DNA from: Methylomonas aurea
GTDB lineage: Bacteria > Pseudomonadota > Gammaproteobacteria > Methylococcales > Methylomonadaceae
Reading direction: 5' to 3'
NCBI RefSeq assembly: GCF_024505045.1
Contig: NZ_JANIBM010000002.1
Span: forward strand, 62,001-126,000
Length of the DNA: 64,000 nucleotides
In this document: positions 4,370 through 51,570 of the stretch, piece by piece
Layout: the number at the start of each line of letters is the position of its first letter
Position numbering within the stretch: the stretch's first letter is position 1
Made by a program: the position numbers and the translations under genes
Notes under the pieces: generated by a model
Told to the model about the DNA's origin: nothing
The model's database searches: none
The model's input: the letters and a program-made list of their open reading frames with translations, nothing else

Positions 4370-5143
4370 ATGAACAAATTCTCAAAAACTTTGGTTGCGG
4401 CCGCGCTGTTGGCCGGCGCCGGTGCGGCTAACGCGAGTATCTCGGTATTGGGTTCGACCGATGCGACCCGCGAGTTGTATTTCCAAGCCTACGACAGCGT
4501 TTCCAAGCTGACTTACAGCCTGGACTTGGGCATCACCCTGGCTCAGTTGATCCCTGAAGTCTCCAACGAGTCTTATACCGTGTTCCGCGATTTGAGCAGC
4601 GATGCCAACTGGACCGCAATGACTTCGGTAGCGACTTACAATCCGACCAACGTGCAATACGTGTTGGCAGTGGGACGTTCTTCGAAATTGTTCATCACCC
4701 AAAAAGAAGGTAATGCTCTACCTGCATACGACGCTCCGCTGACAACTAGTGGTGTGGCAACCGTAATTACCAATCATGCCAAGGAGATCAACGTCGGTTT
4801 GGCTAATGACGCATCGCTGAATGTCAGTAAATTGGTATCAGATACTGATGCACCTGGTAGCGGCCAATGGGCAACCGGTTTAGGCAATTTGCCTGACGAT
4901 ATTTGGGGTACTACCGGAGGTTCCGCTGCCGCAGTCGCCTTCGGCCAAAAAGCCGATTTCTGGTATGCGCAAGGTACCAACGTGACCAAAGCCGCCGGCC
5001 AATGGCTGCTGTCCGGCAATACCCTGGAATACAAAGTATTCCCGGTCAGCCAAGTGCCGCTGCCGGGCGCAGTCTGGATGTTCGGCGCCGGCCTGATGGG
5101 CCTGCTGCGTGCGACCCGCCGCAAATGGGCGGTTGCAGCGTAA
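4370..5143 (+). CDS. VPLPA-CTERM (PEP-CTERM class) surface protein, copy 1
   Basis: 257 residues, starting at the ATG at 4370 with GAGG six bases upstream; an in-frame ATG at 4358 overlaps that ribosome site and is less likely. It has a signal peptide (MNKFSKTLVAAALLAGAGAANA). The C-terminal sorting signal at residues 229-257 consists of VPLPGAVWMFGAGLMGLL followed by the basic tail RATRRK. This tripartite signal marks proteins processed by an exosortase and delivered to the cell surface or matrix; no exosortase gene lies in the window. The body is of unknown fold but resembles the CTERM protein at 29695-30630 (compare RELYFQAYDSVSKLTYSLDLG with SLVFSAVDDATKQTFILNLG). A c-di-GMP riboswitch precedes it, and the PstS-like gene follows after 66 bases. 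Confidence 0.85.
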   Translation: MNKFSKTLVAAALLAGAGAANASISVLGSTDATRELYFQAYDSVSKLTYSLDLGITLAQLIPEVSNESYTVFRDLSSDANWTAMTSVATYNPTNVQYVLAVGRSSKLFITQKEGNALPAYDAPLTTSGVATVITNHAKEINVGLANDASLNVSKLVSDTDAPGSGQWATGLGNLPDDIWGTTGGSAAAVAFGQKADFWYAQGTNVTKAAGQWLLSGNTLEYKVFPVSQVPLPGAVWMFGAGLMGLLRATRRKWAVAA

Positions 5144-5209
5144 ACCGTTTTACGGGCGGCGGTTAAGCCGCCGCCCGCTTTCCAGTTTTAATCCACACGA
5201 GACACGACC

Positions 5210-6814
5210 ATGAAAAAATTAGTATTAGGCGCGGCTATCTCCGCGGCAATGTTCGGCGCAGCGGCGCAAGCGGCGATCCCGACTATCGATCCGGCGACGA
5301 CCCGCGTGCTGTACATTTCCGGCGCTACTGCTGCCGCGACCTTTATCGACCGCCTGGTAACTTCAACCGCTGTCGATCCGGTCGATCGTATTTGCGACCC
5401 AAGCAGCCAGGTTTACCGTTTCAGAGATCCCGGCAACACCGAGCAATTCGCGCTTTACTGCAAAGCCAACAACACCGGCGCGGTCGGCGTAAAAAATCCC
5501 AACCTGCCAACTGGTCCGGCCAACGCCAACTTGTTGATCTATAAAGTCAACACCGGCGGTTCCGGCACTGGTGTGACTCCGGTGGCCCAAGCCACGCCGC
5601 TGGCCTTTTTAAACATCTCCAGCGGTTGCACCGAAATCAGCGCCGGCAATTTGAGCACGCCAGCCGATATTCAGTGCAGCAACATCAACAACAACCAAAT
5701 CCCGGACATGGGCTTGTCGGATGTCGATCCGATCCAGTTCAGAGGCAACAACGCGATTAACGGTGTCGATATCAGCGCCAACGACGTTGCCAAATTGACC
5801 GTCAAAGCCGCCTCCGCATTGAACTTCGGCGCGCCGGTAACCTGGGACTTGTACAGAACCCTGCAAGCCGCGCAAAAATTCACCAACGACCTGCCGGCAT
5901 CCTGCTTGATCGGCGACCGCAGCGAAGCTTGTATGCCTAGCCTGACTTCGGCGCAAATTGCTTCGATCCATGCCGGTAAATGGGATGAATGGAATGCGTT
6001 GAAAGTCGGTAACAGTGCCACTGCGCCCGGCTTGCACGATTGGGCCTTGACCCAAACCACGCCAGTATCGGCCTTCGGTGGCGGCTCGGTCACCATCGCT
6101 GACTTGGCGCCGGTGGATGCGCCGTTCCTGCACACTTGCCGTCGCGACGTCGGTTCAGGTACCCAAGCCCAATCCAACATCATCTTCCTGGGTGACGGTT
6201 GCTCGACCGCGGCATCCGCTTTAACTCCGGCCGAAGCCACAGATGGCGATTTCGCTGAAGGCGACGGCGTTGCAATCATTCACTCCAACACCAGTGCCGG
6301 CCGTGTGGATTCCTGCTTGCGCGACTTGCAGAACGGCAACGATGCCGCTTCCGGTTTCACCAACCAGTGGGGCAAGCGTTGGGCGATCGGTATTCTGTCC
6401 TTGGAAAGAGCCAACGCGGCTTACGAGTTCGTCAAAATCGACGGCGTAGCGCCAACTTTGGCAAATGCTGTCGAAGGCAAATATAAGGATTGGGCGGAAA
6501 ACACCTTCCAATACCGTAACAACACTTCGTCTCTGCCGTTGACCGGCGACAAGAAAACTCTGGCCGATGCGATCATCAAATCTGCCGGTTCGCCTTCGGT
6601 CATGGCCGATTTGAACGCCGGCTTCGTGCATACCTTCGGTAACGGCGCTTACTTGGCCGTTCCTTCCAACTTCGCTCCATCGAACGGCCGTTTCGACGCC
6701 GCCAGACCGGTGATCCCTTACAGCCACGCCGTCAAAACCGGCGCTACCACCTTCGCTCCGGCCAACGCTTGCCGCGTGCCGACCATCTGGGGCGGCGGCG
6801 CAAGCCAACTGTAA
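5210..6814 (+). CDS. Secreted PstS-like (periplasmic-binding-protein fold) protein, copy 1
   Basis: 534 residues with a clear signal peptide cleaved after about residue 21 (AAAQA/AIPT). Weak but ordered similarities to phosphate-binding PstS-type proteins are visible: VLYISGATAAA near the N-terminus; LTSAQIASIHAGKWDEWNAL, the PstS pattern of a lyase-fold helix then a 'nW' turn; RRDVGSGTQ, matching the R-x-x-G-S-G-T phosphate loop; and IDGVAPTLANAVEGKYKDWAE near the end. It contains many Cys residues, suggesting disulfides outside the cytoplasm. It is longer than typical PstS (about 340 aa) and has no pst transport genes nearby, so a structural or ligand-capturing surface role is more likely than phosphate import. 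The paralogue at 30696-32408 also follows a CTERM gene. Confidence 0.65.
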   Translation: MKKLVLGAAISAAMFGAAAQAAIPTIDPATTRVLYISGATAAATFIDRLVTSTAVDPVDRICDPSSQVYRFRDPGNTEQFALYCKANNTGAVGVKNPNLPTGPANANLLIYKVNTGGSGTGVTPVAQATPLAFLNISSGCTEISAGNLSTPADIQCSNINNNQIPDMGLSDVDPIQFRGNNAINGVDISANDVAKLTVKAASALNFGAPVTWDLYRTLQAAQKFTNDLPASCLIGDRSEACMPSLTSAQIASIHAGKWDEWNALKVGNSATAPGLHDWALTQTTPVSAFGGGSVTIADLAPVDAPFLHTCRRDVGSGTQAQSNIIFLGDGCSTAASALTPAEATDGDFAEGDGVAIIHSNTSAGRVDSCLRDLQNGNDAASGFTNQWGKRWAIGILSLERANAAYEFVKIDGVAPTLANAVEGKYKDWAENTFQYRNNTSSLPLTGDKKTLADAIIKSAGSPSVMADLNAGFVHTFGNGAYLAVPSNFAPSNGRFDAARPVIPYSHAVKTGATTFAPANACRVPTIWGGGASQL

Positions 6815-6911: not shown

Positions 6912-7034
6912 CAGGAGCCGTTATCGCGGGTGGCCGGTAACGGCGCTGTCATAAAGTTTTAACCTGGCCGCAATAGAATTTAGGGCTATCGGTTTTCAGC
7001 GGGAAAACCGGGCTTTGGGACACGATATCAACTT

Positions 7035-8687
7035 ATGCAGGACACCGGAACGATAGCGCGCAGGCCATGGCTCAGGCTGGTTTGCGCCGCAGCAACCCTG
7101 ATGGCGGTTGCACAGGCGAATGGGGCGGCGGCACAGGCAGTGCCGGAGCAAGCCGCAGCGGCGCAGGGTGCGGCGGAACCGCAAGCGCCGGCAACCTTCG
7201 ATTTGCTGGAATTGCGGGTCAAGGGCAACACCTTGCTCGATAAAAAACAACTGGAACGCACGGTCTACCGTTTCCTCGGCCCCAACAAGAGCATCGACAA
7301 CGTCGAAGCCGCTCGCGCCGCCTTGGAAGACCTGTACCGCAGCAACGGCTACCAGACCGTCGCGGTCGATATTCCGGAACAGGACGTCAAGAACGGCGTG
7401 GTCTATCTGCAAGTGTTAGAAGGCAAGGTCTCGCGCTTGCGGGTTAAAGACAGCCGCTATTTCTCGCTGGGCAAAATCAAGGCCGGCGTACCGGAACTGG
7501 CGGAAGGCAACGTGCCCAACTTCAAGAACATGCAACAGCAATTGACGCAATTGGCCGGGCAAAGCCCGGACCGGCAAATCGTGCCGGTGCTGCGCGCCGG
7601 GGAAACCCCCGGCACGCTGGAAGTGGATTTGAACGTCAAGGACGAACTGCCGGTTCACGGCAAGGTGGAATTGAACGGCCGCAATACCTCAAGCACCTCG
7701 CGCTTGCGGTTGGTGTCGTCGCTGCGTTACGACAACCTGTGGCAGGAGCTGCATAGCGCGTCGCTGATGTACCAGGTCTCGCCGGAAAACACCGCGGAAG
7801 TCGACGTCTGGGCCGGTACTTACGCGATGCCGCTGTTCGACGGCGACAGCCGGCTGGCCTTGTATGCGGTCAGCTCGTCTTCCAACGCGCAGATCGCCAA
7901 TGCCGGCGCCTTATCGGTGATCGGTATCGGTAACATTTACGGCGCCCGGCTGGTCAAGCCGTTGAAACCGTTGGCGGATTATTTCCATACCGCGACCTTG
8001 GGCATGGACTACAAGGACTTTCAGGAAGATTTGAATCTGCTCAGCGCCGATTCGATCAAGACGCCGATCAGCTATGTGCCGTTTCTGGCGCAATACAGCG
8101 GCAGCCTGCGCGGCGCCGAATCGTTTACCAGTTTCGATATAGGTGCACATTTCTCCTTCCGTGGTTTGGGCAATAACCAGAAGGAATTCGAGAACAAACG
8201 TTATTTGGCCAAAGCCAACTACATGTATTTGACCGGCGATCTGAAATTCCAGCACGACCTGCCGCTGGGTATGGAACTGTACAGCCACGTCGCGGCGCAG
8301 GTGGCCGATACGCCGCTGATCAGTAACGAGCAATTCTCGTTGGGCGGCGACGAAAGCGTGCGCGGCTATTTCGAGACCCAGGCGCTGGCCGACGATGCCG
8401 TGTTCGGTTCGCTGGAATTGCGCTCGCCGCATCTGGGGCCGAGCGACTGGGAGTTTCTGAACAAATTCAAGCTGCTGGGTTTTCTGGACGTCGGCCGCGG
8501 CTGGATCAAGAACGCGTTGCCGGGCAACGTCCGCAGCAATTTCCTCAGCGGCGGCGGCTTCGGCGTGCGCTTCCAGATGTGGCGCAAACTCAGCGGTGCG
8601 CTGGATATCGGCATTCCGTTCACGACCCTGGCGCCGGTGCAAAGCGGCGATCCGCGCGTGCATTTTAATATCGCAACCGAGTTTTAA
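7035..8687 (+). CDS. TpsB outer-membrane transporter (ShlB/FhaC family), copy 1
   Basis: 550 residues. After a signal peptide ending near AQANGAAAQA come a linker and two POTRA-type periplasmic segments (about 54-130 and 135-205, with FDLLELRVKGNTLL opening the first). A 16-stranded-barrel-type C-terminal half follows. The TpsB/Omp85 loop-6 motif VRGY is at residues 442-445, preceded by NEQFSLGGDES. The last residue is Phe, as expected for BAM-assembled barrels. It should secrete the giant TpsA encoded 0.9 kb downstream by recognising that protein's TPS domain. The start is an ATG with a poor ribosome site. It is homologous along its length to the TpsB at 49930-51570. Confidence 0.92.
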   Translation: MQDTGTIARRPWLRLVCAAATLMAVAQANGAAAQAVPEQAAAAQGAAEPQAPATFDLLELRVKGNTLLDKKQLERTVYRFLGPNKSIDNVEAARAALEDLYRSNGYQTVAVDIPEQDVKNGVVYLQVLEGKVSRLRVKDSRYFSLGKIKAGVPELAEGNVPNFKNMQQQLTQLAGQSPDRQIVPVLRAGETPGTLEVDLNVKDELPVHGKVELNGRNTSSTSRLRLVSSLRYDNLWQELHSASLMYQVSPENTAEVDVWAGTYAMPLFDGDSRLALYAVSSSSNAQIANAGALSVIGIGNIYGARLVKPLKPLADYFHTATLGMDYKDFQEDLNLLSADSIKTPISYVPFLAQYSGSLRGAESFTSFDIGAHFSFRGLGNNQKEFENKRYLAKANYMYLTGDLKFQHDLPLGMELYSHVAAQVADTPLISNEQFSLGGDESVRGYFETQALADDAVFGSLELRSPHLGPSDWEFLNKFKLLGFLDVGRGWIKNALPGNVRSNFLSGGGFGVRFQMWRKLSGALDIGIPFTTLAPVQSGDPRVHFNIATEF

Positions 8688-9060
8688 AATAGTATCCGCC
8701 GAGTTATTGTAATATTTTCGTAATTAATTATTAATGGTCTTATTTGGGTTTGTTTTTGTAGGTTAAACCTTGGTGGCTGTCATAATGTTGACATAATTGT
8801 TATTTAATACCTTGGTACAGTTATTAAATCGTACTGAGTATTTAAACTATAGCGGCGTGATATTTTCGAGTTACCGTATTTGCTTAGACGGCTATTTATA
8901 GGGTTGGTAAGGTTGAATTTGGTTTTGGCGTTAACGGCGCCATTATTTGGAAAATAGGGTTTAGATCGGGTGTTGAATAAATCCGCCTGTGTCACCTTTT
9001 TTCAAAGTTGGAAGCTTTATCCGGCGGACGTTGCGGTACCGGCAATGGCGCTAAATTAAG

Positions 9061-9599: not shown

Positions 9600-12500
9600 A
9601 TGGCCAAATCCGCGGCATTTCCACGGCAGACATCCTGCGAACCGTTCCGACTCAATCCTTTGGTGGCCTGCGTCCGCCTGGCGCTGGCCGGCGGCATGCT
9701 GGTGGGCGGCGCCCAGCCGGTCCGGGCCGAATTGCCGATTCCGGCGGCGGCCTGGGTTACCAGCGGCGCGGCGACCAGCCAGGTGATCGGCAATACCCTG
9801 CGTATCGACCAGACCACCGACAAAGCGATTCTGAACTGGGACCAGTTCAACGTCGGCCGGGAGAACACTGTGCAGTTCGTGCAGCCCAACAGCCAATCGA
9901 TTGCGCTGAATCGGATCAACCAGCACGACCCAAGCCGGATCTTCGGCCAGATCATTGCCAACGGCCAGATTTACCTGTACAACAAAAACGGTTTCGTGTT
10001 CGGTAAGGATGCGGTGATCAACACCAACACCGTGGTCGCGACCACGTTGAACATCAGCGATGAGATCTTCAACCGCGGCATCACCCGAGTATTCGACGAA
10101 AACAACAGTGCCGCGCTGGCGATCGAGCCGATGGCGCCGGGCGATACGCTCGACCCGAAAACCGCGAAAATTCTGATCGAGGCCGGCGCCAAGATTTCCA
10201 CCGATAACAACGGCCGGATCATCATCGTCGCACCGGAAATCGAAAACCGCGGTACGTTGACCAGCGGCAAGCAGGGCCAAATCATCCTGGCCGCCAGCCA
10301 GGACAAAGTCTATCTGCAAACCGCGAACAAGGACGATCCGTTCGCCGGCCTGGTCGTGGAAGTGGATACTGGCGGCAAGGTCACCAACGCCACGACCGGT
10401 AATATCGGCGTGCGCCAGGGCAACGTGACGATGGCCGGCTTCGTCGTCAACCAGCAAGGCCGGGTCAGTGCCACCACTTCGGTCAACGTCAACGGTTCGA
10501 TCCGCTTGCAAGCCGCCGAACAGAGCGGCGTACTGGGTTCGCGTCTGGTGGCAACCCGCACCGACCGCAGCAGCGATGCCGGCGACGGTTTGGGGACCAA
10601 GGCGACTGCGACGTTCGGCGCCAACAGCAGCACCGAAATTCTGGCTGACGCAGAAGGCGGCAGCGCCGCCGACGGCCAGGTGCAACCCGATTCCTATCTG
10701 GCCGCGACTGCCAATACCATCGTGGTCGAGGGCGGCGCCAACGTCAAAGTCCCCGGCGGCAAGGTTAACCTGACTGCGACCGACAATCTGGCCAAACCCA
10801 ATCTCGGCACCAAGGGCAGCATCCGCATCGACAGCGGCGCGGCTATCGACGTTTCCGGCTATAAAAACGTCGCGGTGGCGATGGAGCGCAACGTCGGCGA
10901 GGTTTCGGTGCAAAGTTTCGATTTGCGCGATGCGCCGCTGCAGAAGTCCGGCGTGTTGAAAGGGCAAACCGTGTATGTCGATTTGCGCGGCGATAGCCAA
11001 ATCATCGACACCGCCGGCGCCAAGGACCGCATCAGCCGCAGTATCCAGGAACGGCTGGCCGAAGGCGGCAGCATCACCCTGACCTCGGGCGGCGACATTG
11101 CCGTGAACGGTAACGCGACGTTCGATATTTCCGGCGGTTCGGTCAACTATGCCGACGGTTACGTCAACACCACCAAATTGATGAACCAGTACGGCCAGAT
11201 CGTCGATATCGGCGACGCCGACCCGAACGACCATTACATCGCGGTATTGGGCGTGGTTAACCAGACCCACAAAAAATGGGGTATCGAAAAGACCTATAAC
11301 TTGTTGGGAGCCGGCTCTTTCGCTCAGTTCGAACGCGGCTACAGCGAGGGCAAGAACGCCGGCAGCCTGAACCTGCAGACGGCGCAACTGGCCTGGAACG
11401 GCGATCTGACGGCCGGCTCGCAGGCCGGCATCTACCAGCGCGATTTGGCGAAACTGCCCGGCGCCGGCGAATTCAACATCGATTTGGCGCTGTTTTTGTC
11501 GGCGCAGGATGTCAAGTTCCAAACCGCTCCCGGTACCGTCCATATCGCGTCCGGCCAGGATTTTCCATTGAAAGGCGACGGCCGGCCGGCCGATTTGCTG
11601 ATCTCCACCGCCAAACTGCAACAATCCGGCGTCGGCAAAGTTTCGGTAAAAACATTGGGCAGTGCCACGGTCGGTGCGGACGTCAGTATCGCGATGCGGC
11701 CCACCGGCAGCCTGAGTCTGGATGCCGGTACGGTTAATTTCGCCGGCGATTTCAAAGCGGCCGGCGGCAGTATTACCTTGGCGGCGGCCAACAATGCCAA
11801 ATTGCCCGGTTCGGGCGGCTTATCGTTAGCCGGCAGCGCCGATCTGGACGTCTCCGGATTGTGGGTCAACGATTTGCAAAAAGGTTTCGATGCGGCGCCG
11901 ACCGACGCGTTGGCACTGGACGGCGGCCAAGTCACGCTTAAGTCGGAAGGCGATCTGACGGTCGCGGCCGGTTCCCGGATTCGGGCCGACGGCGGCGCCT
12001 GGCTGGCGTTGAACGGCGAGCTCGAAGCCGGCAAGGGCGGCGATATTACCTTGGCCGCCACGGCCAGCGGCCTGAGCTATCCGGTATTGCGCGTAGCCGG
12101 CGAAGTTTCGGCCTACGGCTTGGAACGCAACGGCAGTCTGACACTGGAGAGCGGCAAAATCGTGGTCGGTACGCCCGCGGCCGGCGAAGCCAATCAAGCT
12201 TTTGTGGTCGGTGCAGGCGGTTTCGACGCCTCCCGTTTCGCCGCTTTCAATACCGTCAATCTGGTTGCCAACACGGCCGGTGTTACCGTCAAATCTTCGA
12301 CCGATCTGAACTTGCGCGCCAGGAATCTGGTTTTGGCCGGCGATTACCTGAACCGTGCCACCGGTTCCGCATTGCGCGATTTCAGCCAAGTCGTCGAGTT
12401 ACCGGAACATTTGCGCCAGCCGATGGCGGTCAAACTGCAAGGTTTCACCGAAGTGGCACTGGAAACCGGCAGCGCGATCCGCGCCGATAAAGGTTCGACC

Positions 12501-15500
12501 GTCAGTCTGGTCAGTTCTGCCGGCAGCATTTACGTCGACGGCACTGTGCAAAGCGAGGGCGGCAAAATCAATCTGACCGCGACCTCGGTCAACGACCAGG
12601 AATACGACGACAAACAGGTGATCTGGTTGGGCTCGCACGCCAAATTGCTGGCGCAAGGCACCACCCGCTTGAATCCGGCCGACGTATTCGGCCGCCGTAC
12701 CGGTGTGGTATTGGACGGCGGCGAAGTCGTGTTCGACGCATTGCGCGGTGCGGTAGTTCTGGAAAACGGCTCTTTGATCGACGTTTCCGGCACCAGTGCC
12801 GAACTGGACATCCAGCAAAAAGGCAATCCCTTGGCGAATAATTTCGTCCGGCAGCGGATCGCATCGAATGCCGGCAAGGTCAAGGTTACCGCCGCCGAGG
12901 GGGCGGTACTGGAAGCCGATTTCCGCGCCAACGCTGGTTCGCCGTTGGCGCACGCCGGCAAGTTGGAGCTGGCGCTGGACCGGTTCCGCCGCAACCCGCC
13001 GTCGCAGCCGGAAATCCCGTTTCCGAGCAATCCGTTGGTCATCAACGTGACGCAGTCTTCCCGGCGCTGGTCGAATCAGGATCCTGTCTACGGCGAACGC
13101 TTCCCGCTGGAATTGAACGGCAAAATGTCGCTCAGCATCGACCGCTTCGCCGCCGGCGGTTTCAGCGATTTGAGCCTGACTGCGGACCAGGTCGTGTTCA
13201 GCGGCGCCGTCGATCTGCACGCCGGCGAGCGGATCAAAATCGACGCCGCCAAAATCAACGCGGCGGACATCGACGGCCAGGCCGCCGACGTCGAATTGCA
13301 TACGGTATTCCTGCAAATCGGCTCGTCGCTGAACCGGACGCTGGCCGATAGCGCCGATAGCGGTAGCGGCCGGTTTAGCGGCAATGCGCAATGGATACAG
13401 CTCAACGGCGCCACGCAATGGAACGGCTTCGAACGGATTGCCTTGAACAGCCAACACGACTTGCGCGCGGTCGGCATCCGCGAATCCGGCGACCAGCGCG
13501 ACTTCATCGGCGGCTTGGTGACGGCGGCGGATTTACATCTGCAAGCCAGCCAGATTTATCCGACCACATTGAGCAATTTCACCTTCGCGGTCAAAAACAA
13601 TGCCGACGGCAAGATCGTCATCACCGGTAACAATACCGACACCGATAACACGCCATTGTCGGCAGCCGGCCAATTGACCTTCGATGCGCCGGTGATTCGC
13701 CAAGCCGGCGCGATCAAGGCGCCGATGGGCACGATAACCCTGAAAGCCGGCCGCGAATTGACGCTCGAGCAAACCAGCCTGACCTCGGTTTCGGCTCGCA
13801 ACATGAAATTCGACCCGGCCAGCCAAACCTGGGTGGCCGGCGCCGATTTGACGATTCCGTTCGGCGTGACTCAGGGCGGCCTGGATTGGCTCTATCCGTT
13901 GGACGACGCCGGCCGCAAACTGGTGTTCGATACCGCGCCGGAAAAACGCTTGGTACTGTCGGCGCCGGACATCGATATCAAAACCGGTAGCACGGTCGAC
14001 GTGGCCGGCGGCGGCGATTTGTTGTCCTACGAGTTCCAACCCGGAGCCGGCGGTTCTTACGATTATTTGCAACCGGGCAGCCCGTCTTACCAAGGGGGCT
14101 TCGCGGTATTACCCGGTCTGGGTTCCGAGCTGGCGCCGTTCGACCATTACGAAAGCCAGTATTTGCCCTACGCCTTCGGCAGCAAGATTTACCTGGACGG
14201 CGGCTCCGGCCTGGCGGCCGGCGAGTACGTGATTTTGCCGGCCCGCTATGCGTTGTTGCCTGGGGCTTATCTGATTACGCCGCAGGCCGGGACCCAGGAT
14301 TTACCCGCCAGCCAGGCCACGATAGACGGCCGGGCCATCGTGCCGGGTTATCTGGTGCAGGCCGGTACCGGGATCCGCGACGCCCGCAGCAACGGTTACT
14401 TGATCGAAACCGGCGCCGACGTGCGGATGCGCTCCAGCTACGACATTCACACCGCCAACGATTTTTACCGGGAGCGGGCGCTCAAGAACGAACAGGCCGT
14501 GCCGCTGTTGCCCATGGACAGCGGCCAGATTTCGTTGGTCGCGCAGAACCAGTTGGTCATGGACGGCAAGTTTCTGGTCGAAGCGGCCAACGGCGGCAGA
14601 GGGGCGAAGATGGATATCGCCGCCAACCGCATCAGCGTGGTCGAGCAACTCAGCCAGGCGCCTGCGGCCGGCGTGCTGGAGATCCTGGATAGCGATCTGA
14701 GCGCTCTGAACGTGGACAGCCTGTTGCTGGGCGGTGCCCGCAGCCGTAACCAAAGCAAAGCCGGCGAAACCGATATCCAGGTTACCGCCAGCGAGGTGGT
14801 ATTCAGCGAGAACGTGGCGTTGAGCGGACCGGAAATCATGGCCACCGCGACCGGGTTGATCGATGTGCGCGCCGGCGCCGTGCTGGCGGCCGACAGAGCT
14901 GCCAACAGCGGCGACAGCGTGTTGAACATTGCCGGCGACGGCGCGATTCTGCGCGTGTCCGGCGACAAGCAAGTAGTATTCAACCGCAGCGAAACCTCGG
15001 CCGACGCCGCCGGCGGCGAACTGCGGGTCGCGGCCGGCGCCACGCTGAAATCGGCCAAATCGATGTTGTTGGGCGCGACCCGCTCCACCCAATTGCTGGG
15101 CGAACTGGAAATGGACGGCGGTTCGTTGAATCTGACCGCCAACACCATCAACCTCGGCGAAGTCGATGGCTTGAGCGGCAGCAACGCGCTGAACTGGTCC
15201 AACCGCAAATTGTCGGCGTTGGCGGTCGACGAGTTGGTGCTGACCGCACGCGATAGCGTCGGCGTCTACGGCAACTTGCATCGGGTCAAGGTCGACGGCT
15301 CGGCCGAGCTCGATCAAAACGGCGCCACCCGCGCCATCCATTTCGGCAGTTTGACCTTGAACGCGGCCGGTATTTCCGGATACGGCGCCGGCGGCGACCT
15401 CGCCCAATTGTCTGCCGATAGTCTGACGCTGCAAAACAGCGCCGGCGCGCAAAGTTCGCGCAGCGGTAGCGGCAGCGGCGTTTTGGCTTTATCCGCCGAC

Positions 15501-25424: not shown

Positions 25425-25515
25425 ATCCCGCGCAGGATTGCCGCGGCAGGTCTGCAATCGCCAGCTTCGACCGGCGCGTCCGAAACAACCACACGCAAGA
25501 ATCATCGAGATACTC

Positions 25516-43396: not shown

Positions 43397-43412
43397 TGGC
43401 ACGCTTACTGCA
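43397..43412 (+). promoter_or_regulatory. Sigma-54 (-24/-12) promoter of the exbB2 operon
   Basis: TGGCACG, four bases, CTGCA; GG and GC are ten bases apart with one deviation in the -12 half. It lies about 110 bases before the ATG at 43524, after the tpsA2 terminator. Confidence 0.75.
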
Positions 43413-43523: not shown

Positions 43524-45365
43524 ATGTTTAAAAAGTCATACCTGTTCGGCTGTGCCGTTTTGTGTTTTCCATTGCTCGCCCAAGCCTGGTGGAACGACGA
43601 CTGGAACTCGCGCCGGCAAGTAGCGGTGGATGCATCGGCGACCGGAGCCGACATCCAGGAAACCTTGGCCGAGGTGCCGGTGCTGGTGCGGCTGCACGCC
43701 GGCAACTTCGGCTACTTTGCCGAGCTGGCCGAGAACGGCCGCGACTTGCGTGCATTGAAAGACGACCAAAACCCGTTGGCCTACCAGGTCGAGCAGGTCG
43801 ACGCCTTGAGCGAAATCGGCCTGGTCTGGGTCAAGCTGCCGCAAGTGCGCGGCGGCGTCGCCACCGACGACTTCTGGCTGTACTACGGCAACGCCAATGC
43901 CGCGGACGGTTCGGACGGCAAGGGCTTGTACGATCTCGCCCAGGGCCTGGTGTACCACTTCAACGCCGCCGATACCCTGCCGCAGGATGCCACCGCCTAC
44001 GCCTCCCATGCCAGCGATTCCAAAGCCAGCATTCAAGCCGCCGGCTGGATTGGCGCCGCCGCCCAATTCACGGGTAGCGGGCCGATTACGGTAAATCCCT
44101 TGCCGCAATTGGCTTTTGCCGCCGACAAAGGCTGGACTTTCTCCGCCTGGCTGAAGATCGACCAGGCCAACCCGGCCGCGACCCTGCTCAGTGCCCAAGC
44201 CCCCGGCTTCGATCTGCGCTTGAACCTGCAAGGCAATACGCTAACTGCCGTGGCCGGTAACGCCAGCACCCCGGCGGCATCGCTGACTTTAGGAAAGTGG
44301 CAGCACATCTCCCTGGTGCTGCGCCCGGAAAACCTGGCCGCCTACACCGGTGTCAAGGCCGCGCAAAACCCCGCCAGTTACGCGCCGCCGCAAATCCTGG
44401 AACTGTACCTCGACGGCGTTTCGGTCGGTACGGTCAAAACCCAATTGAGTGCCGGCCAACCCGCGATTCGCCTCGGTGACAACTATCAAGGCTGGCTGGA
44501 CGAAGTGCAGATCGCCGCCACCGCCCGTAGCGCCGACTGGCTCAAATTCGCCTACCGCAGCCAAAGCCCGGATTTCGCCGTGCTCAGCCACGGCCAGGAC
44601 GAGTCCAACAGCAGCGGCGACGGCGGCCACTTCATGGTCATCGTCCAAAACGTTACCGTCGACGGCTGGGTCGTGATCGGTTTAACCCTGATCATGCTGA
44701 TTGTCGCCGTCATCGTCATGGTCAGCAAAACCCTGGTCATCAACCGGATCGGCAAGGACAACCGCGCTTTTCTCGACCAATACCGCCGGCTGGATCCGAA
44801 CAGTCTGGGCTCTCTCGACCAGGACGAAACCGCCGAGGAACAGGAATTGGGCGAGTCGGATCTGCTGACCGCTCTGGTCGGCAAACATGACCACTTCCAG
44901 AGTTCGGTGCTGTACCACCTGTACCACACCGCGATCCAGGAACTGAACAAACTGCAAGGCAACGCCGACCAGGTGGTGACCCGCGAAGCTTGGGATTATC
45001 TGCGGGTCAAGCTCGACAGCCAGATCGTCCACGAAGGCCAACGCCTGAACCGGCATATGGTGCTGCTGACCATCGCCATCGCCGGCGGCCCGTTCCTGGG
45101 CCTGCTGGGCACCGTGGTCGGGGTGATGATCACCTTCGCCGCCATCGCCGCCTCGGGCGACGTCAACATCAATTCCATCGCCCCCGGTATCGCCGCCGCC
45201 TTGCTGGCGACCGTGGCCGGCCTGGCCGTCGCGATCCCGGCGCTGTTTGCCTACAACTACCTGTTGACCCAGATCAAAGACATTACCGCCAGCATGCGGG
45301 TTTTTGCCGATGAGTTTCTGGCCATTTTATCCATGCGCGCCGCCCGCCAGGCGGCAGGGAACTAA
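43524..45365 (+). CDS. DUF2341-LamG-ExbB/TolQ fusion proton channel, copy 2
   Basis: 613 residues from the ATG at 43524; a TTG four codons upstream is less likely. The layout is the same as copy 1: signal peptide ending AQA, WWNDDWNSRRQ, DUF2341-type domain, LamG-like domain with GWTFSAWLKI and WLDEVQIA, a membrane helix starting VDGWVVIGLTLIM, a cytoplasmic segment, and the ExbB core with GGPFLGLLGTVVGVMITF ending ALFAYNYLL. The ExbB part is far better conserved between copies than the ectodomain, which suggests the two sense different ligands while driving the same kind of motor. exbD follows after three bases. Confidence 0.88.
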   Translation: MFKKSYLFGCAVLCFPLLAQAWWNDDWNSRRQVAVDASATGADIQETLAEVPVLVRLHAGNFGYFAELAENGRDLRALKDDQNPLAYQVEQVDALSEIGLVWVKLPQVRGGVATDDFWLYYGNANAADGSDGKGLYDLAQGLVYHFNAADTLPQDATAYASHASDSKASIQAAGWIGAAAQFTGSGPITVNPLPQLAFAADKGWTFSAWLKIDQANPAATLLSAQAPGFDLRLNLQGNTLTAVAGNASTPAASLTLGKWQHISLVLRPENLAAYTGVKAAQNPASYAPPQILELYLDGVSVGTVKTQLSAGQPAIRLGDNYQGWLDEVQIAATARSADWLKFAYRSQSPDFAVLSHGQDESNSSGDGGHFMVIVQNVTVDGWVVIGLTLIMLIVAVIVMVSKTLVINRIGKDNRAFLDQYRRLDPNSLGSLDQDETAEEQELGESDLLTALVGKHDHFQSSVLYHLYHTAIQELNKLQGNADQVVTREAWDYLRVKLDSQIVHEGQRLNRHMVLLTIAIAGGPFLGLLGTVVGVMITFAAIAASGDVNINSIAPGIAAALLATVAGLAVAIPALFAYNYLLTQIKDITASMRVFADEFLAILSMRAARQAAGN

Positions 45366-45368: not shown

Positions 45369-45773
45369 ATGAAAGTCGAAGAAGAAGGCAAGGTATACGA
45401 CGACATCAACATCACGCCGATGCTGGACGTGGCCTACGTGCTATTGCTGATTTTCATCATCATGACCACCGCCACCGTGCAGGGCATCACCGTCAATTTA
45501 CCCAAGGCCAGCAGCACGCCGAGCCTGTCCAAACCCAAGACCAAGGCGATTTCGATCACCCCGGACGGCAGCGTTTATCTCGACACCTACCCGGTGTCGT
45601 TGCAGGAACTGGAAACCCGGCTGGCGCAGTACAAGGCGGCGACGCCGGACCTGCCGGTGGTGGTCAAAGCCGATGCCAGCGTGCAGTACCAGAAGGTGAT
45701 CGAGGTACTGGATATTGTCACCCGGTTGCAGATTAGTCAGTTGGGGTTGGTGACGCAGAAGTTGGTGAAGTGA
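45369..45773 (+). CDS. exbD: ExbD/TolR-family biopolymer transport protein, copy 2
   Basis: 134 residues, the same length as copy 1 and closely similar throughout. The essential Asp is residue 20 in INITPMLDVAYVLL, and the periplasmic domain ends LGLVTQKLVK. The three-base spacing to the ExbB-type gene indicates translational coupling. tonB, adjacent in copy 1, is here 495 bases away because a repeat element lies between them. Confidence 0.93.
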   Translation: MKVEEEGKVYDDINITPMLDVAYVLLLIFIIMTTATVQGITVNLPKASSTPSLSKPKTKAISITPDGSVYLDTYPVSLQELETRLAQYKAATPDLPVVVKADASVQYQKVIEVLDIVTRLQISQLGLVTQKLVK

Positions 45774-46268: not shown

Positions 46269-46943
46269 ATGACAAACAAATACGCCTGGCTCCGGCGCTT
46301 GCCGGTGGTGTTGGGAATAGGGTTGAGCCTGTTGATCGGTTTGGGCGTGTGGTGGCTGGCGGATAAGTTCGAGAAGCCGCCGCAGACCAAAAAGCAGGTG
46401 CAACAGATCACGGTGATCCAGCCGCCGCCTCCGCCGCCCCCGCCGCCGGAGCAACCGCCGCCTCCCCCGGAGGAGATCAAGGAAGAGAAGATCGAAGAAC
46501 CTGAGCCGGAACCGGAGCCGGAACCTGCGCCGGAGCCGGACGAAGCGCCGCCGGCCGAGGATTTGGGGGTGGATGCCGACGGTACTGCCGGCAGCGACGG
46601 CTTTGGTTTGCAAGCCCGCAAGGGCGGCCGCTCGATCCTCGGCGGCGGTGGCGGCAACGCCATCCTCTGGTACGGCGGCCAGATCCAGCGCCAGGTCGAG
46701 ACCGGCCTGCAAAATCTGCTGGCCGACACGCCGGCAGCGCAAGCCGGCTACAGCGTGATCCTGGAAATCTGGGTCGGCCCGGACGGCCGCATCAGCCGCG
46801 GCGAACTGGCCAGCGGCAGCGGTAAAGTCGAAGTCGACCAGGCCCTGCGCACCGCGCTGCCGCGACTGCGCGCCAGCGTCGGCCGGCCGCCGCCGGAAAG
46901 CATGCCGCAACCGATTCGGATTCGGTTGAATTCGAGGGTTTAA
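46269..46943 (+). CDS. TonB-family energy transducer, copy 2
   Basis: 224 residues. A membrane anchor (about 12-31, VVLGIGLSLLIGLGVWWLA) is followed by polyproline runs (about 53-68), a Glu-Pro linker, the conserved block GSDGFGLQARKGG, and a TonB C-terminal domain with YSVILEIWVGPDGRISRGEL. It ends IRIRLNSRV. It pairs with the ExbB/ExbD proteins encoded upstream. Unlike copy 1, the gene is bracketed by two direct copies of a repeat element, so its coupling to exbD and to the porin gene has been loosened and it may need its own promoter. Confidence 0.87.
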   Translation: MTNKYAWLRRLPVVLGIGLSLLIGLGVWWLADKFEKPPQTKKQVQQITVIQPPPPPPPPPEQPPPPPEEIKEEKIEEPEPEPEPEPAPEPDEAPPAEDLGVDADGTAGSDGFGLQARKGGRSILGGGGGNAILWYGGQIQRQVETGLQNLLADTPAAQAGYSVILEIWVGPDGRISRGELASGSGKVEVDQALRTALPRLRASVGRPPPESMPQPIRIRLNSRV

Positions 46944-47243: not shown

Positions 47244-49115
47244 ATGAACACCGTAAGCAAACCCCTGGCCCTTGTTTTGACCGGCAGTCTGGCCGCCGGC
47301 ACCGGTCTGGCGCAGGCCGCCACCCCAGCCCCGGCCGACGCCGTGATTCCGGTCAAGAAGTCCACTTTGGTCAACCTGGTCGATCTGCTGGTACAGCGCG
47401 GCGTGATCAATCAAGCCGAAGGCCAGGGCCTGGTGCAGGCGGCCGAACAGGAAGCCGCCGCGGCGCAGGCCGAAACCGGCCATGCCAAGCCAACTGCCGC
47501 GACGGGATCAAGCGACGCCCAGACCGCTGCCGACTGGTCCGGCGAGCCGGCCAATGTCCCGGGTAAGTCCGGCAAGACCAAGCACGTCGGCTACGTGCCG
47601 GAGTTCGTCAAAAAAGAAATCCGCGACCAGGTGCGTGCCGAGCTGAAGGCCGAGGTGTTGCAGGACGTGAAACGCGATGCCAAGGACGAAGGCTGGGGCA
47701 TTCCCGGCGCGCTGCCGGAGTGGGTGGCGGCGATTCATCCCAGCTTCGATGTGCGCATCCGTTTCGCCGACGAGTTTTACGGCAAGGACAATGTAGGCGG
47801 GGTCGAGAACGTCGGCCTCGATCCCGTCGGTAACTTCGTCGGCCCGTACAACTGGCTGGCGATCAACCGCGCCGCCACCGGCAATCAGGCCGGCTTGACC
47901 ACCCAGGTTTCGTTGAATCCGAACGAGGCCATTCTCAACAATCAAAAAGACCGGCTGCGGCTGCGGGAACGCTTTCGCCTCGGTTTCGAAGCCAATCTGG
48001 CCGACGGTCTGAAAGCCGGAGTGCGCTTCGCCACCAGCAACATCAACAACCCGGTCTCGAACGACCAGACCCTGGGCAACACCGGGCAGTCCTACCAGTT
48101 CGCGATCGACCGCGCCTTCCTGCAGTACGACTTTCTGGACGAACGTAAGACTAACTGGTTCAGCTTGTATGCCGGCCGTATCATTAATCCCTTCGTCTCC
48201 ACCGACGTGGTGTTCGATCCCGACCTCAGTTTCGAAGGGCTGGCCGGCAGCTTCCGGCTGCCGTTCAACCGCGGCAGCAACAAACTGGCCGGCTACAAGG
48301 CGCCGAACCCCACCGCCCGCTTCGGCTTGAACCAGGGCCAGCAGACGCCGGACAGTCTGTTCGTCACGCTGGGCGTGTTCCCGTTGCAGGACATTGACGT
48401 CTCGGTCAACGACAAATGGCTCTATGCCGGCCAGGTCGGCGCCGACTGGCTGGTCTGGCATGACTCGCGGTTGAATCTGGCGGCGTCGTATTACGAGTTC
48501 CAGAATGTCCAGGCCCGGCGCAATCCGGTCGGCAGCCATGCCTACGACTGGACCGCGCCGCAGTTCGTGCAAAAGGGTAATTCGATGGTGGCGATCAGCG
48601 ACGCCAACACCTTGTTGCCGAACTGCACCGACACCGTGGGCTGCTTGTTCGGCCTGGCATCCGAGTTCAAGGTGTTCAACGCCACGGCGATGTTCGACTA
48701 TGCCGGCTTCGGCGATACCCATGTCCTGTTCACCGCCGATTATGCTCAGAACCTGGGCTTCAACCGGCAGAAAATCCTGAGCGAGTTCGGCACCGCCTTC
48801 GCCAGTACCGACCTGCAGCCGCGCACCAAGGCCTACCAGGTGCGGGTCGACGTCGGTGCGCCGGAATTGCGGCGCTGGGCGGACTGGAACGTCAATCTGG
48901 CCTACCGCTACGTGCAGCGCGATGCGGTATTGGATGCCTTCACCGACTCGATCTTCCACCAGGGCGGCACCGACGCCAAGGGTTGGGTGATGGGCGTGCA
49001 ATACGGCCTGGCCAAGAGCACTTGGCTCAACCTGCGCTGGTTCAGCACCGACGCCATCGACGGTCCCCGCTACAGCATCGACACCGTCAACGTCGATCTC
49101 AACGCACACTTCTAG
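47244..49115 (+). CDS. Porin_5-type putative outer-membrane porin, copy 2
   Basis: 623 residues with a signal peptide ending near GLAQA (residue 25). The periplasmic N-terminal region carries the same block as copy 1 (about 114-160: VGYVPEFVKKEIRDQVR and GIPGALPEW), preceded by a 40-residue Ala/Glu/Gln-rich stretch. The beta-barrel covers the rest and ends VDLNAHF with terminal Phe. It is about 60 residues longer than copy 1, mainly in the N-terminal region and a few loops. It lies directly after tonB2 and 11 bases before the coiled-coil gene. Confidence 0.82.
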   Translation: MNTVSKPLALVLTGSLAAGTGLAQAATPAPADAVIPVKKSTLVNLVDLLVQRGVINQAEGQGLVQAAEQEAAAAQAETGHAKPTAATGSSDAQTAADWSGEPANVPGKSGKTKHVGYVPEFVKKEIRDQVRAELKAEVLQDVKRDAKDEGWGIPGALPEWVAAIHPSFDVRIRFADEFYGKDNVGGVENVGLDPVGNFVGPYNWLAINRAATGNQAGLTTQVSLNPNEAILNNQKDRLRLRERFRLGFEANLADGLKAGVRFATSNINNPVSNDQTLGNTGQSYQFAIDRAFLQYDFLDERKTNWFSLYAGRIINPFVSTDVVFDPDLSFEGLAGSFRLPFNRGSNKLAGYKAPNPTARFGLNQGQQTPDSLFVTLGVFPLQDIDVSVNDKWLYAGQVGADWLVWHDSRLNLAASYYEFQNVQARRNPVGSHAYDWTAPQFVQKGNSMVAISDANTLLPNCTDTVGCLFGLASEFKVFNATAMFDYAGFGDTHVLFTADYAQNLGFNRQKILSEFGTAFASTDLQPRTKAYQVRVDVGAPELRRWADWNVNLAYRYVQRDAVLDAFTDSIFHQGGTDAKGWVMGVQYGLAKSTWLNLRWFSTDAIDGPRYSIDTVNVDLNAHF

Positions 49116-49126: not shown

Positions 49127-49933
49127 ATGGCTAAGCAACAACCCTGGCGCCGGATTTATTTACCGCCCTTATGCTTGCTACTGTTGTTGGCGGGCATTGA
49201 AACCAGTGACGCCGAACCCAAAGCCGCCGCGCCGGGAGGCGACGCGCTCAGAAAGGCTCAGGGCCTGATCCGCCAGCTCAGCCAGGAAAAGCAGGCGCTG
49301 GAGACCGAGAAAACGGCCTGGCTGGGCGAGAAGGCCGCGCTGGAAGGGCAGTTGCAGACCCTGCAGCAGCAGGTTCGGCTACTGCCGGCGCTGCAAGAGC
49401 AGGTTGAACGTTATAAAGCAGGTCTGGAAGCGGTGCGCGGCAATCTGGAAGGCCAATTGGCGCAGCAGCGCCAGCGCGAACAGGCCCTGGTGCAAAAACA
49501 CAACGAGGTGGTGGCGAAAGCCCGCGACATTCGCGACGACAACCAGTTGCTGGTGCAGGCGGTGCAGGAACGGGAACAATGGATTGCACAATGCGCCGGC
49601 CTGAACCAGCAGTTGCGTGAGCTGAACCAGAAAGTGGTCGACGGTTACGAACAGAAAGGCCTGTGGCAGCAACTGGCCGAACTGGAACCGATCACCGGCA
49701 TCGCCAAGGTTGATACGCAAAACCGGGCGGAAGAATACCGTTACCAACTGAAGCAGTTGAAAGTGACGCCGTTCGAGGCCACCGTTTCCCGCGGTGGCGA
49801 CAGCCAGCCCGTGGTCGAGCCAAGCCCCGCCCACGAATTGCAGGGGGGCGCGGAGCAAGCCGTTCCTGCCGGCACGTCCGTGGCTACGCAGCAGGCCGCT
49901 GAGCCGGTGCCGTCTGCGGAGGTCGAGCGATGA
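49127..49933 (+). CDS. Secreted coiled-coil protein, copy 2
   Basis: 268 residues from the ATG at 49127, with AGGAGG overlapping the porin stop codon; the longer frame runs back into the porin gene and is excluded. The hydrophobic N-terminus (YLPPLCLLLLLAGIETSDA) acts as signal peptide. A long heptad coiled coil covers about residues 45-170 (LIRQLSQEKQALETEKTAWL onwards), followed by a conserved-looking tail (KVVDGYEQKGLWQQLAELEP) comparable to YQNKGALSGLLEQEA of copy 1. The stop overlaps the start of tpsB2 by four bases (ATGA), coupling their translation. Confidence 0.75.
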   Translation: MAKQQPWRRIYLPPLCLLLLLAGIETSDAEPKAAAPGGDALRKAQGLIRQLSQEKQALETEKTAWLGEKAALEGQLQTLQQQVRLLPALQEQVERYKAGLEAVRGNLEGQLAQQRQREQALVQKHNEVVAKARDIRDDNQLLVQAVQEREQWIAQCAGLNQQLRELNQKVVDGYEQKGLWQQLAELEPITGIAKVDTQNRAEEYRYQLKQLKVTPFEATVSRGGDSQPVVEPSPAHELQGGAEQAVPAGTSVATQQAAEPVPSAEVER

Positions 49934-51570
49934 GGCGTTCCGCAGCGTTAACGCCGGTCTGGCTGGCTGTTTTCGGCGTGTTCCATGCCGCTGCCAACGC
50001 AGCTAGCGGTTCGGCCGGCCCGGCCGCAGCCGATGCAGCCGACACCGCCGCGCAATGGGCCGGCGAAGCGCAACCGCGCTTCGACGTGCTGGACTTTCAG
50101 ATCGACGGCAACAGCCTGCTCGACGACGAAACCCTGGAAAAGGCGGTATATCCCTATTTGGGGCCGGAGAAAACCGTGGCCGACGTCGAACAGGCTCGGG
50201 CCGCATTGGAAGAAGCCTACCGCACGGCCGGTTACCCGACCGTGGTGGTGTCGATCCCGGAGCAGGACGTCAACGAAGCCAGCGTACGGCTGATGGTGGT
50301 GGAGGGCAGTATCGAGACTTTGCATATCAGTGGCTCGCGCTATTTCGATCTAGGCAAGATCCGCGCCGGCGTGCCGGCCTTAGCGGAAGGCCGGGCGCCG
50401 CATATGCCGCAGGTGCAGGAGCAGATCAACGCGCTGGCCAAACAATCCGGCGACCGTTCGATCACGCCGGTATTCCGTGCCGGTTCGACCCCGGGCAAGA
50501 TGGAGGTGGAACTGAAGGTCAAGGACGAACTGCCGCTGCACGGCAGCCTGGAGCTGAACAGCCGCAATTCGGAACAGACCAGCTATACTCGGCTGCAAGG
50601 GGCACTGCGCTACGACAATCTGTGGCAGAAGTTCCACAGCGCTTCGCTGCAATACCAGGTCTCGCCGCAGAACGCCGAGGAGGTCGAAGTATGGTCCGGC
50701 ACTTACGTGCTGCCGACCGGCTGGGCCGACACCCGGCTGGCGTTGTACGGCATCGGCATCAGTTCCAGCACCCAGCTCGGTGTCAACGTCGGCGGCCTGT
50801 CGGTGGTCGGTGCCGGTTCGATCTACGGCGCCCGCCTGGTGAAGCCGCTGGACAGCACCAGCGACGGCGTGCTGCACAGCCTGAGTTTCGGTGTGGATTA
50901 CAAGAACTTCGGCCAGCAGATCGCCCAGTTTGCCGACAGCGCCAGCCCGATCAGTTACGCCGCTTTCGTCGCCGGCTACGACGGCGTGCGCCGCGGCGAC
51001 GGCCATGCCAGTAGTCTGAATTTGACCGCTCACTTCAGCTTTCGCGGCCTGGTTAACGACGCCGAACAATTCGAAAGTAAACGTGCCGGCGCCACGCCCA
51101 ATTTTCTTTACCTGACTGCCGATCTGAAACACCAGCAGCAGCTTCCGGCGGATTTTCGCTTACTGGCCCGGGCCGGCGGCCAGGCCAGCGCGGCGCGACT
51201 AATCAGCAACGAACAATTCTCGGCCGGCGGCCCGCTCAGCGTCAGGGGCTACCACCAGACCCAGCTGCTGGGGGACCACGGCGTCAATCTGTCGCTGGAG
51301 CTATACAGCCCGCACCTGCTGCCGGGCGAGTTCGAAGCGGCGCAAAACCTGCGCCTGCTCGGCTTCATCGACTGGGCCCATTTGTGGACCGATGCGCCGA
51401 TCGCACCGACTCCCGCCCAGGATACCTTGGCTGCAGCCGGCGTCGGCCTGCGTCTGCAATTGCTGAAACGCCTCAGCGGCGAACTGGACTGGGCCTACCC
51501 GTTCCACGCCCACGGCGCCGTCGACATCGGTCAACAACGGCTCGATTTTAGGATGGCTTATGAGTTTTAA
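49930..51570 (+). CDS. TpsB outer-membrane transporter (ShlB/FhaC family), copy 2
   Basis: 546 residues. The order is signal peptide, a short Ala-rich linker, two POTRA-type segments (FDVLDFQIDGNSLL opening the first), then a barrel. VRGY is at residues 438-441 after NEQFSAGGPLS, and the chain ends RMAYEF with terminal Phe. It is similar along its length to the TpsB at 7035-8687, including YDNLWQ and YQVSP. It is the probable exporter of the TpsA at 32806, although it lies 6.7 kb beyond that gene's end, at the end of the exbB2 operon. In copy 1 the tpsB gene lies upstream of tpsA instead. Confidence 0.92.
   Translation: MRRSAALTPVWLAVFGVFHAAANAASGSAGPAAADAADTAAQWAGEAQPRFDVLDFQIDGNSLLDDETLEKAVYPYLGPEKTVADVEQARAALEEAYRTAGYPTVVVSIPEQDVNEASVRLMVVEGSIETLHISGSRYFDLGKIRAGVPALAEGRAPHMPQVQEQINALAKQSGDRSITPVFRAGSTPGKMEVELKVKDELPLHGSLELNSRNSEQTSYTRLQGALRYDNLWQKFHSASLQYQVSPQNAEEVEVWSGTYVLPTGWADTRLALYGIGISSSTQLGVNVGGLSVVGAGSIYGARLVKPLDSTSDGVLHSLSFGVDYKNFGQQIAQFADSASPISYAAFVAGYDGVRRGDGHASSLNLTAHFSFRGLVNDAEQFESKRAGATPNFLYLTADLKHQQQLPADFRLLARAGGQASAARLISNEQFSAGGPLSVRGYHQTQLLGDHGVNLSLELYSPHLLPGEFEAAQNLRLLGFIDWAHLWTDAPIAPTPAQDTLAAAGVGLRLQLLKRLSGELDWAYPFHAHGAVDIGQQRLDFRMAYEF

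Follow-up and report, generated by a model that had tools for sequence, protein, structure and literature searches.

In Pseudomonas aeruginosa a two-partner secretion (TPS) pair is encoded next to a TonB module in the order pdtA, phdA, pdtB, exbB2, exbD2, tonB4 and PA0696, the last a putative porin. PhoB binds the vreA, pdtA and phdA promoters, phdA through PA0701 are transcribed from one promoter, and the TonB system of this Pdt locus has been termed uncharacterised (PMC2729926, PMC7035377, PMC4971064). PdtA and PA0696 rise at low phosphate, and the alkaline phosphatases LapA and LapB adjoin pdtA (PMC9769906). In zebrafish embryos, induced virulence was kept in all tpsA, tpsB, tonB-homologue and PA0696 mutants tested (PMC2729926), so that this work provides no phenotype for the module. 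Here we describe two copies of a nine-gene cassette of about 22 kb in which a comparable layout is combined with CTERM proteins and PstS/DING-like binding proteins. They lie in a 64,000-nucleotide stretch of the 4.8-Mb genome of the methane-consuming bacterium Methylomonas aurea (positions 62001-126000 of contig NZ_JANIBM010000002.1, hereafter the window), within which all positions are counted.

The HxuABC system of Haemophilus influenzae resembles the cassette in that a TPS exoprotein works with TonB-dependent uptake, but it uses an ordinary TonB-dependent heme transporter, and the available text mentions no private ExbBD-TonB system, porin or PstS-like protein (PMC5422565). A Pseudomonas DING protein is secreted and its gene stands beside a giant TpsA gene: in P. 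fluorescens psp lies directly next to the gene of a 4083-residue haemagglutinin, and the psp product is secreted when phosphate is low (PMC2225411). A 2025 study points out that ExbB-like proteins can carry DUF2341 as an additional domain, for which it has no explanation (PMC12505986).

Compared with the published gene lists (PMC2729926, PMC7035377), the cassette shares with the Pdt/PUMA3 locus (lapA, lapB, pdtA, phdA, pdtB, exbB2, exbD2, tonB4, PA0696, PA0697) a TPS pair, ExbB, ExbD, TonB and a putative porin in this order, and the likeness extends to the PhoB-bound promoters, for which copy 1 has candidate sites. Pdt/PUMA3 differs in being under VreAIR control too, and the available parts of these papers mention no CTERM protein or exosortase partner. 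Homology is suggested by gene order, annotation and the STN-domain genes of alphaproteobacterial relatives. An initial annotation of the window knew of no published system in which TPS is combined with a dedicated TonB motor and exosortase substrates; the Pdt locus, already in print with its TonB part uncharacterised, contradicts this as far as TPS and the TonB motor are concerned. The Pdt-like layout is thus known, while the nine-gene unit was not found described in the open-licence PubMed Central full texts searched, as far as these were available, and neither DUF3739 nor two-partner secretion with PEP-CTERM returned papers there.

Composition of the two cassettes

Copy 1 (4370-25226, plus strand) encodes CTERM1, a putative exosortase-sorted surface protein (4370..5143), a PstS/DING-like binding protein (PstS1, 5210..6814), TpsB1 (7035..8687), the giant exoprotein TpsA1 (9600..19706), a DUF2341-LamG-ExbB fusion (19872..21659), ExbD1 (21748..22152), TonB1 (22163..22825), Porin_5 (22847..24541) and a coiled-coil protein that, judged by eye from its N-terminus, is apparently exported (24555..25226). 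TpsA1 probably starts with the ATG at 9600, the TTG at 9327 being a mere limit of the open reading frame. Copy 2 (29695-51570, plus strand) consists of CTERM2 (29695..30630), PstS2 (30696..32408), TpsA2 (32806..43179), the second fusion (43524..45365), ExbD2 (45369..45773), TonB2 (46269..46943), Porin_5 (47244..49115), a coiled-coil protein likewise apparently exported by eye (49127..49933) and TpsB2 (49930..51570), with open reading frames for all nine genes. The near-identical gene order described initially therefore holds for eight genes and fails for TpsB, which precedes TpsA in copy 1 and comes last in copy 2. The gaps of 66 and 65 bases between the CTERM and PstS-like genes were both reproduced (5144-5209 and 30631-30695, the latter assuming that PstS2 starts with the ATG at 30696).

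The claimed correspondence of nine protein pairs was borne out by alignments far beyond chance. Local identities are 32.0% for CTERM, 30.0% for PstS-like, 50.5% for TpsB, 40.8% for TpsA, 45.3% for DUF2341-ExbB, 66.4% for ExbD, 51.0% for TonB, 43.7% for Porin_5 and 27.0% for the coiled-coil proteins, and the scores lie between 12.7 (CTERM) and 393 (TpsA) standard deviations above those of shuffled partners, based on 50 shuffles for eight pairs and only 5 for TpsA. Both copies contain a TPS pair, with POTRA_2 and ShlB in TpsB and an N-terminal TPS domain (PF05860, 85.2 bits in TpsA1 and 71.1 in TpsA2, cut-off 33.5) as well as DUF3739, near the C-terminus in TpsA1, in TpsA. Pfam further identifies DUF2341, LamG and MotA_ExbB in the fusion, ExbD, TonB_2 and Porin_5 in each copy; the ExbB, ExbD and TonB domains all exceed their cut-offs (TonB_2 29.5 bits in TonB1 and 29.4 in TonB2, cut-off 22). 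The LamG domain, absent from the initial annotation, sits between DUF2341 and the ExbB channel.

Conservation and descent of the nine genes

The nine genes are a unit kept across the Gammaproteobacteria and inherited together over many families. Of 369 evenly sampled gammaproteobacterial genomes, 24 from 16 families contain full-length Porin_5 (E below 1e-100) and 23 contain DUF2341-ExbB (E up to 1e-30), every one of the latter being among these 24; the only Porin_5 genome without the motor, G239, is 64% complete. Full Porin_5 is present in 23/23 motor genomes versus 1/346 others (Fisher 1.1e-35, kinship not corrected), and motor-less genomes besides G239 show at most partial Porin_5 matches, mainly to the barrel region (30 genomes). 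ExbB and Porin_5 lie at most 1.6 kb apart in 21 of the 23 genomes, about 26 kb apart in G050 and on separate small contigs in G110. The PstS-like family occurs in 21/24 system genomes versus 1/345 others and DUF3739-TpsA in 23/24 versus 0/33 others searched, mostly in frames of 3,400-3,600 codons. At the fetched loci of the 23 non-source genomes PstS-like was present in 20, with a CTERM-protein gene directly ahead in 15. Four of the remaining five stretches begin at most 0.8 kb from the PstS-like gene, so that the CTERM gene may lie outside; in G288 it is absent at this place.

This is further supported by a scan for DUF2341-ExbB, in which the best 80 of 87 confirmed places served as locus set; their titles name Gamma-, Beta- and Alphaproteobacteria and one Verrucomicrobia bin. 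Among these best 80 of 87, ExbD follows in 73, the other 7 stretches stopping at most 0.2 kb past the ExbB match, and a Porin_5 match follows in 64, sometimes cut by the contig end, while the 16 loci without one have less than 1.3 kb of sequence past the ExbB match. The nearest named relatives of the locus are from Methylomonas. Loci of this genus that belong to the lineage of copy 1 (type 1, see below) and have enough upstream sequence mostly share the order, with G009 and G021a, where CTERM and PstS-like were not seen ahead of TpsB, as exceptions, and G002 carries the same tandem pair of cassettes as the window. The components thus travel together far beyond the window, and the scattered distribution that would speak against a unit was not found. 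That the nine components work as one conserved machine, as initially proposed, is almost certain. The idea that CTERM and PstS-like genes are chance neighbours in Methylomonas was overturned by their pairing in other genera and by the genome survey.

Additional triads of DUF2341-ExbB, ExbD and TonB genes were seen in G027 (L177, 7980-11140) and G189 (L176). The 20 kb retrieved at these loci contain neither a porin nor TpsA, and the triads sit on long branches of the ExbB tree. Conversely, G377 has a PstS-like member (L162, 7885-9705) in a genome where the ExbB motor, Porin_5 and DUF3739-TpsA were not found.

The two copies are old paralogs. In a DUF2341-ExbB tree of 130 rows, copy 1 falls into a 44-row clade (SH-aLRT 99) with Thiogranum, Thiohalobacter and other Methylomonas (type 1), and copy 2 into a 48-row clade (SH-aLRT 99) with Methylovulum, Methylobacter, Methylomicrobium and other Methylomonas (type 2). 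The nearest rows in a Porin_5 tree are G020, L053 and G002 for copy 1 and G002 for copy 2, both trees being quickly made and of unknown root. The cassette type agrees gene by gene with that of ExbB in 34/34 loci for TpsB, 60/62 for TpsA, 74/74 for ExbD, 73/73 for TonB, 65/67 for Porin_5 and 63/63 for the coiled-coil protein, counted over loci with a strong ExbB match, many of them related or counted through two collections; this argues that whole cassettes descended as units. A recent local duplication is ruled out, as each copy has its nearest kin in other genomes and the type-1 clade includes other families. Rather than stemming from a simple local duplication of some 22 kb, the copies represent old paralogous lineages that are closest to loci elsewhere.

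Profile comparisons indicate that the PstS-like family is a remote relative of PstS and DING proteins. A class-wide profile matches the PBP_like_2/PstS alignment with 95.6% probability (hhalign) and, in the PDB, phosphate-binding chains (best E 7e-6), including the DING proteins 2v3q and 3w9v (about 7e-5); an earlier comparison with 18 sequences was weak (73%, PDB best E 0.041) and rose with broader sampling. The member from G195 lies above the PF12849 gathering cut-off, and PstS2 has a weak NCBIfam match only (E 0.018). In alignment A2, a GSGT loop after an invariant arginine is found in 11/11 type-1 or betaproteobacterial rows and in 0/7 type-2-associated rows; copy 1 has RRDVGSGT, a putative anion loop, and copy 2 RRNKGAAIS. 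SGT or SGS is usual, not universal, in the loop of other families, and we take the PstS loop to serve anion binding. The family thus resembles DING/PstS proteins in its probable membership of the PBP_like_2 superfamily and in the SGT anion loop of type 1, and differs in its length of about 530 residues, its remote sequence, its CTERM partner and the absence of the loop from the type-2 rows examined. LapA and LapB beside pdtA are presumably DING-like proteins as well.

The proposed exosortase link gained support. Of the CTERM proteins adjoining PstS-like, nearly all carry a VPxP/PEP-type tail (the G357 frame is disrupted close to its end, next to an unread base), and exosortase genes are present in 21/24 system genomes versus 9/33 others (8 above cut-off), with two in the source genome. 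G027, a complete genome without exosortase, has two CTERM relatives that keep the domain (profile positions 11-231) and carry a different tail, which we take to be PKD-like. This joint loss of exosortase and tail, in one genome, is the best evidence for a functional tail. The CTERM proteins share with PEP-CTERM/exosortase substrates the C-terminal VPxP-hydrophobic-RR tail and an exosortase in the genome, but stay under the curated cut-offs and belong to a cassette with TPS and TonB systems.

A non-core neighbour of copy 1 that the initial annotation lacked is a PrsT-type TPR protein (25438..27900, plus strand; TIGR02917 331.4 bits, cut-off 312.2), of a type belonging to the XrtA/PEP-CTERM system; its gene also stands behind the type-1 loci of nine other Methylomonas genomes. 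A Rhodanese-domain protein is encoded between the copies on the minus strand (28204-29202), with a relative in the same place in G002.

Regulatory sites of copy 1 and copy 2

The paralogs carry different regulatory sites, and those of copy 1 make it very probable that this copy belongs to the phosphate response. The window contains 3 matches of at least 15 to the 18-base Pho-box consensus, compared to a mean of 0.13 and a largest value of 2 in 60 shuffles, and 4 matches of at least 14 (1.13 on average in shuffles, 5 at most). These four sites share the plus strand and occupy gaps ahead of cassette genes, namely CTERM1 (4025..4042, 15/18, about 345 bases ahead of the ATG), TpsB1 (6946..6963, 15/18), TpsA1 (8777..8794, 14/18, in the TpsB1-TpsA1 gap about 820 bases ahead of TpsA1) and ExbB1 (19809..19826, 15/18, with a similar site in other type-1 loci). 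Exactly 10 bases past two of them follow the -10-like sequences TAGAAT (TpsB1) and GATAAT (ExbB1). Over all loci, boxes of at least 14 are found upstream of CTERM in 10/41, TpsB in 10/43, TpsA in 6/43 and ExbB in 13/55 (shuffle means 0.17, 0.33, 1.0 and 0.33), those of ExbB all on the plus strand (13/13), and before the other genes in 0/58 for ExbD, 0/56 for TonB, 1/60 for Porin_5, 1/62 for the coiled-coil protein and 1/43 for PstS-like.

The PstS-type gene of the M. aurea genome itself (L184) served as positive control and has two overlapping boxes 11 bases apart; Pho boxes were not found at several other PstS-type genes checked as controls. An earlier mismatch-count scan had given a chance-like result (2 found, 2.3 expected), and the sites became convincing only once the full 18-base consensus, shuffles and control genes were used. 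Pho boxes ahead of transcription units, as expected for a PhoB regulon, are confined to copy 1: none of the upstream matches of at least 14/18 comes from a type-2 locus of Methylomonas, and copy 2 is also without one.

Copy 2 instead has sigma-54 -24/-12-like sites ahead of CTERM2 (29580..29595) and ExbB2 (43397..43412), both on the plus strand and each matching 11/12 positions of the sigma-54 consensus. In addition, 16-base palindromes TGCTGANNNNTCAGCA have 41 window matches with at most 3 mismatches compared to 19.9 expected. A perfect one precedes CTERM2 (29510..29525), and pairs 32 bp apart lie before CTERM2 (29224..29271) and ExbB2 (43299..43346), all listed on the plus strand. In 143 sequences, many of them overlapping, a search allowing at most 4 mismatches in all per pair gave 15 pairs exactly 32 bp apart and, over the remaining spacings between 17 and 60 together, only 6. 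Each of the 15 precedes a type-2 CTERM or ExbB gene; they correspond to 13 places in 9 genomes after doublet removal, and such pairs were found only in copy 2's own lineage. As the motif was derived from the window, its two window pairs are not independent, in contrast to the others. The type-2 loci with divergent or distant TpsA (G005b, G012b, G017b, G023b and G002c) showed neither Pho boxes (14/18) before the genes examined nor 32-bp palindrome pairs. A candidate regulator of copy 2 is the Sigma54_activat-domain protein encoded downstream of the cassette (51943..53064, plus strand; PF00158 234 bits), with related genes behind TpsB2 in G002 and G015. Sulfate transport and cysteine genes lie downstream of it, which is no more than a hint at sulfur.

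Several further features were seen in this part of the window. The ExbD2-TonB2 spacer (45774-46268) is 495 bases long, compared to 10 bases in copy 1, and contains inverted repeats with 14-nt perfect arms (45836-45869) and 36-nt arms (45907-46017). The gene of an Alginate_exp-family outer membrane barrel (53652-55157; PF13372, 257 bits) separates the sigma-54 activator from the sulfate transport genes, and G002 and G020 have a related gene in a matching context. CysK- and CysE-like genes are followed by the gene of a Family 2A encapsulin shell protein (62749-63666; NF041162, 532.7 bits, cut-off 380); a cysteine desulfurase gene was not noticed anywhere in the window.

Proposed function and rival explanations

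From the observed composition, co-inheritance, regulatory sites and family ties we infer that TpsA is displayed at the surface, that the PstS-like protein acts in capture and that TonB acts on Porin_5. The cassette may thus form an envelope-spanning, TonB-driven machine for nutrient capture at the surface, phosphate-linked in copy 1, to which we assign a probability of about 0.5; for uptake through Porin_5 with TonB energy as such we see evenly balanced chances. TpsB would export the TpsA protein of about 3,400 residues, which would remain on the cell surface. The PstS/DING-like protein is expected to bind an anion, in copy 1 phosphate or a phosphorylated compound, and could be held at the surface or in the matrix by the CTERM protein, sorted by the cell's exosortase. 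The DUF2341-LamG-ExbB/ExbD motor would drive the private TonB, which would act on the Porin_5 channel through a TonB-box-like N-terminal segment and so bring the captured nutrient into the periplasm, while the coiled-coil protein might bridge TonB, porin and cell wall. PhoB would turn on copy 1 under phosphate starvation and a sigma-54 activator, probably the neighbour at 51943-53064, copy 2. The binding protein of copy 2 is without the phosphate-type loop and is therefore likely to serve another nutrient or signal.

The porin segment (VRVxYVPxxVKxEIR, 94/102 distinct porins with a simple pattern) is placed between a variable linker and the barrel and reads VRVAYVPDFVK in copy 1 and KHVGYVPEFVK in copy 2. 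Its assignment as a TonB box is a guess based on its resemblance to the TonB-box pattern. A PDB sequence search with Porin_5 gave no match, and Pfam finds no plug-and-barrel TonB-dependent receptor among the core genes, the only barrels being Porin_5 and TpsB. More tentatively, the cassette could represent a new kind of TonB-driven uptake, in which phosphate compounds are caught outside the cell by a giant TPS filament together with a DING/PstS-like protein anchored through exosortase and are passed to a TonB-gated Porin_5 channel in place of a classical plug receptor, the DUF2341-LamG head of ExbB senses or grips the envelope, and duplication was followed by re-tuning through regulator and loop; we regard this full version as possible but doubtful.

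A number of observations weigh against nutrient capture. The hydrophobic-x-hydrophobic pair ahead of the porin segment is found in only 73/102 porins. PstS1 is without a Pfam match at E 0.01, as is PstS2, and PBP_like_2 (PF12849) is reached at this level by just 7/24 family members. PstS-like is present in 9/9 gamma- and betaproteobacterial named genomes versus 0/7 alphaproteobacterial or verrucomicrobial genomes tested and is missing from 3/24 system genomes (G144, 85% complete; G260, 82% complete; G313, complete), so that binding is not part of a universal core, and the core genes include no cognate ABC transporter. The CTERM tails score just under the curated PF07589 cut-off of 20.7 bits (19.4 for CTERM1, 17.0 for CTERM2). 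The Pho-box counts come from related genomes, and minus-strand matches (5/10 for CTERM, 2/10 for TpsB, 1/6 for TpsA) may reflect chance or relatedness. Finally, the sigma-54 pattern has four window matches, of which two lie at other places and on the minus strand, and in the full set of loci it precedes just 3/41 CTERM and 3/55 ExbB genes (shuffles 0.10 and 0.40).

The private TonB motor could instead serve export, i.e. the assembly, release or retraction of TpsA via TpsB or Porin_5 in an adhesin or matrix system at phosphate starvation. To our knowledge, TPS export as known runs without an energy source at the outer membrane. This reading also gives no easy account of a phosphate-type binding protein and a porin, and the motor genes of G050 lie about 12 kb from TpsA. 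We therefore consider export unlikely, even though TpsA and TpsB are almost constant cassette members, the CTERM partner and PrsT tie the locus to exosortase and matrix, and many TPS exoproteins are adhesins (PMC5422565). Signalling as in PUMA3, with a TonB module that mainly senses a surface-bound ligand and signals to a regulator with little transport, draws on STN-domain genes at about 10 kb or less from TpsB-ExbB in four alphaproteobacterial loci (L064, L069, L070 and L078). A TonB_2 match follows STN in the same protein in L064, L069 and L078, above cut-off only in L078, and L070 additionally carries genes for TonB, ECF sigma and FecR immediately before TpsB. These genes tie the family to PUMA3. 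In the window, however, no STN, ECF sigma or FecR domain, and thus no VreA-VreI-VreR-type gene beside the cassette, was found by Pfam in the 29 of 32 open reading frames scanned, and the sites present are Pho boxes in copy 1 and sigma-54-like ones in copy 2, which makes signalling less probable still than export.

That Porin_5, TPS and TonB modules are mere neighbours with independent roles in a surface-gene region would agree with the variable position of TpsB and the split loci of G050 and G027, but is very improbable given the near-perfect co-occurrence over 369 genomes and the gene-by-gene agreement of cassette types. Even less credit is due to copy 2 as a decaying or redundant duplicate of copy 1: several Methylomonas genomes show one full-length Porin_5 gene only, yet copy 2 is open in all nine genes, has conserved operators of its own and has kin in other genera.

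If the cassette captures nutrients, this would explain coherently, and in a testable way, what the uncharacterised TonB module and the porin next to the phosphate-regulated Pdt secretion genes of Pseudomonas are for. The work names a conserved nine-gene unit, of which two paralogous copies under two regulators provide a natural experiment. If the proposed mechanism is true, a plug-less porin would join the targets of TonB.

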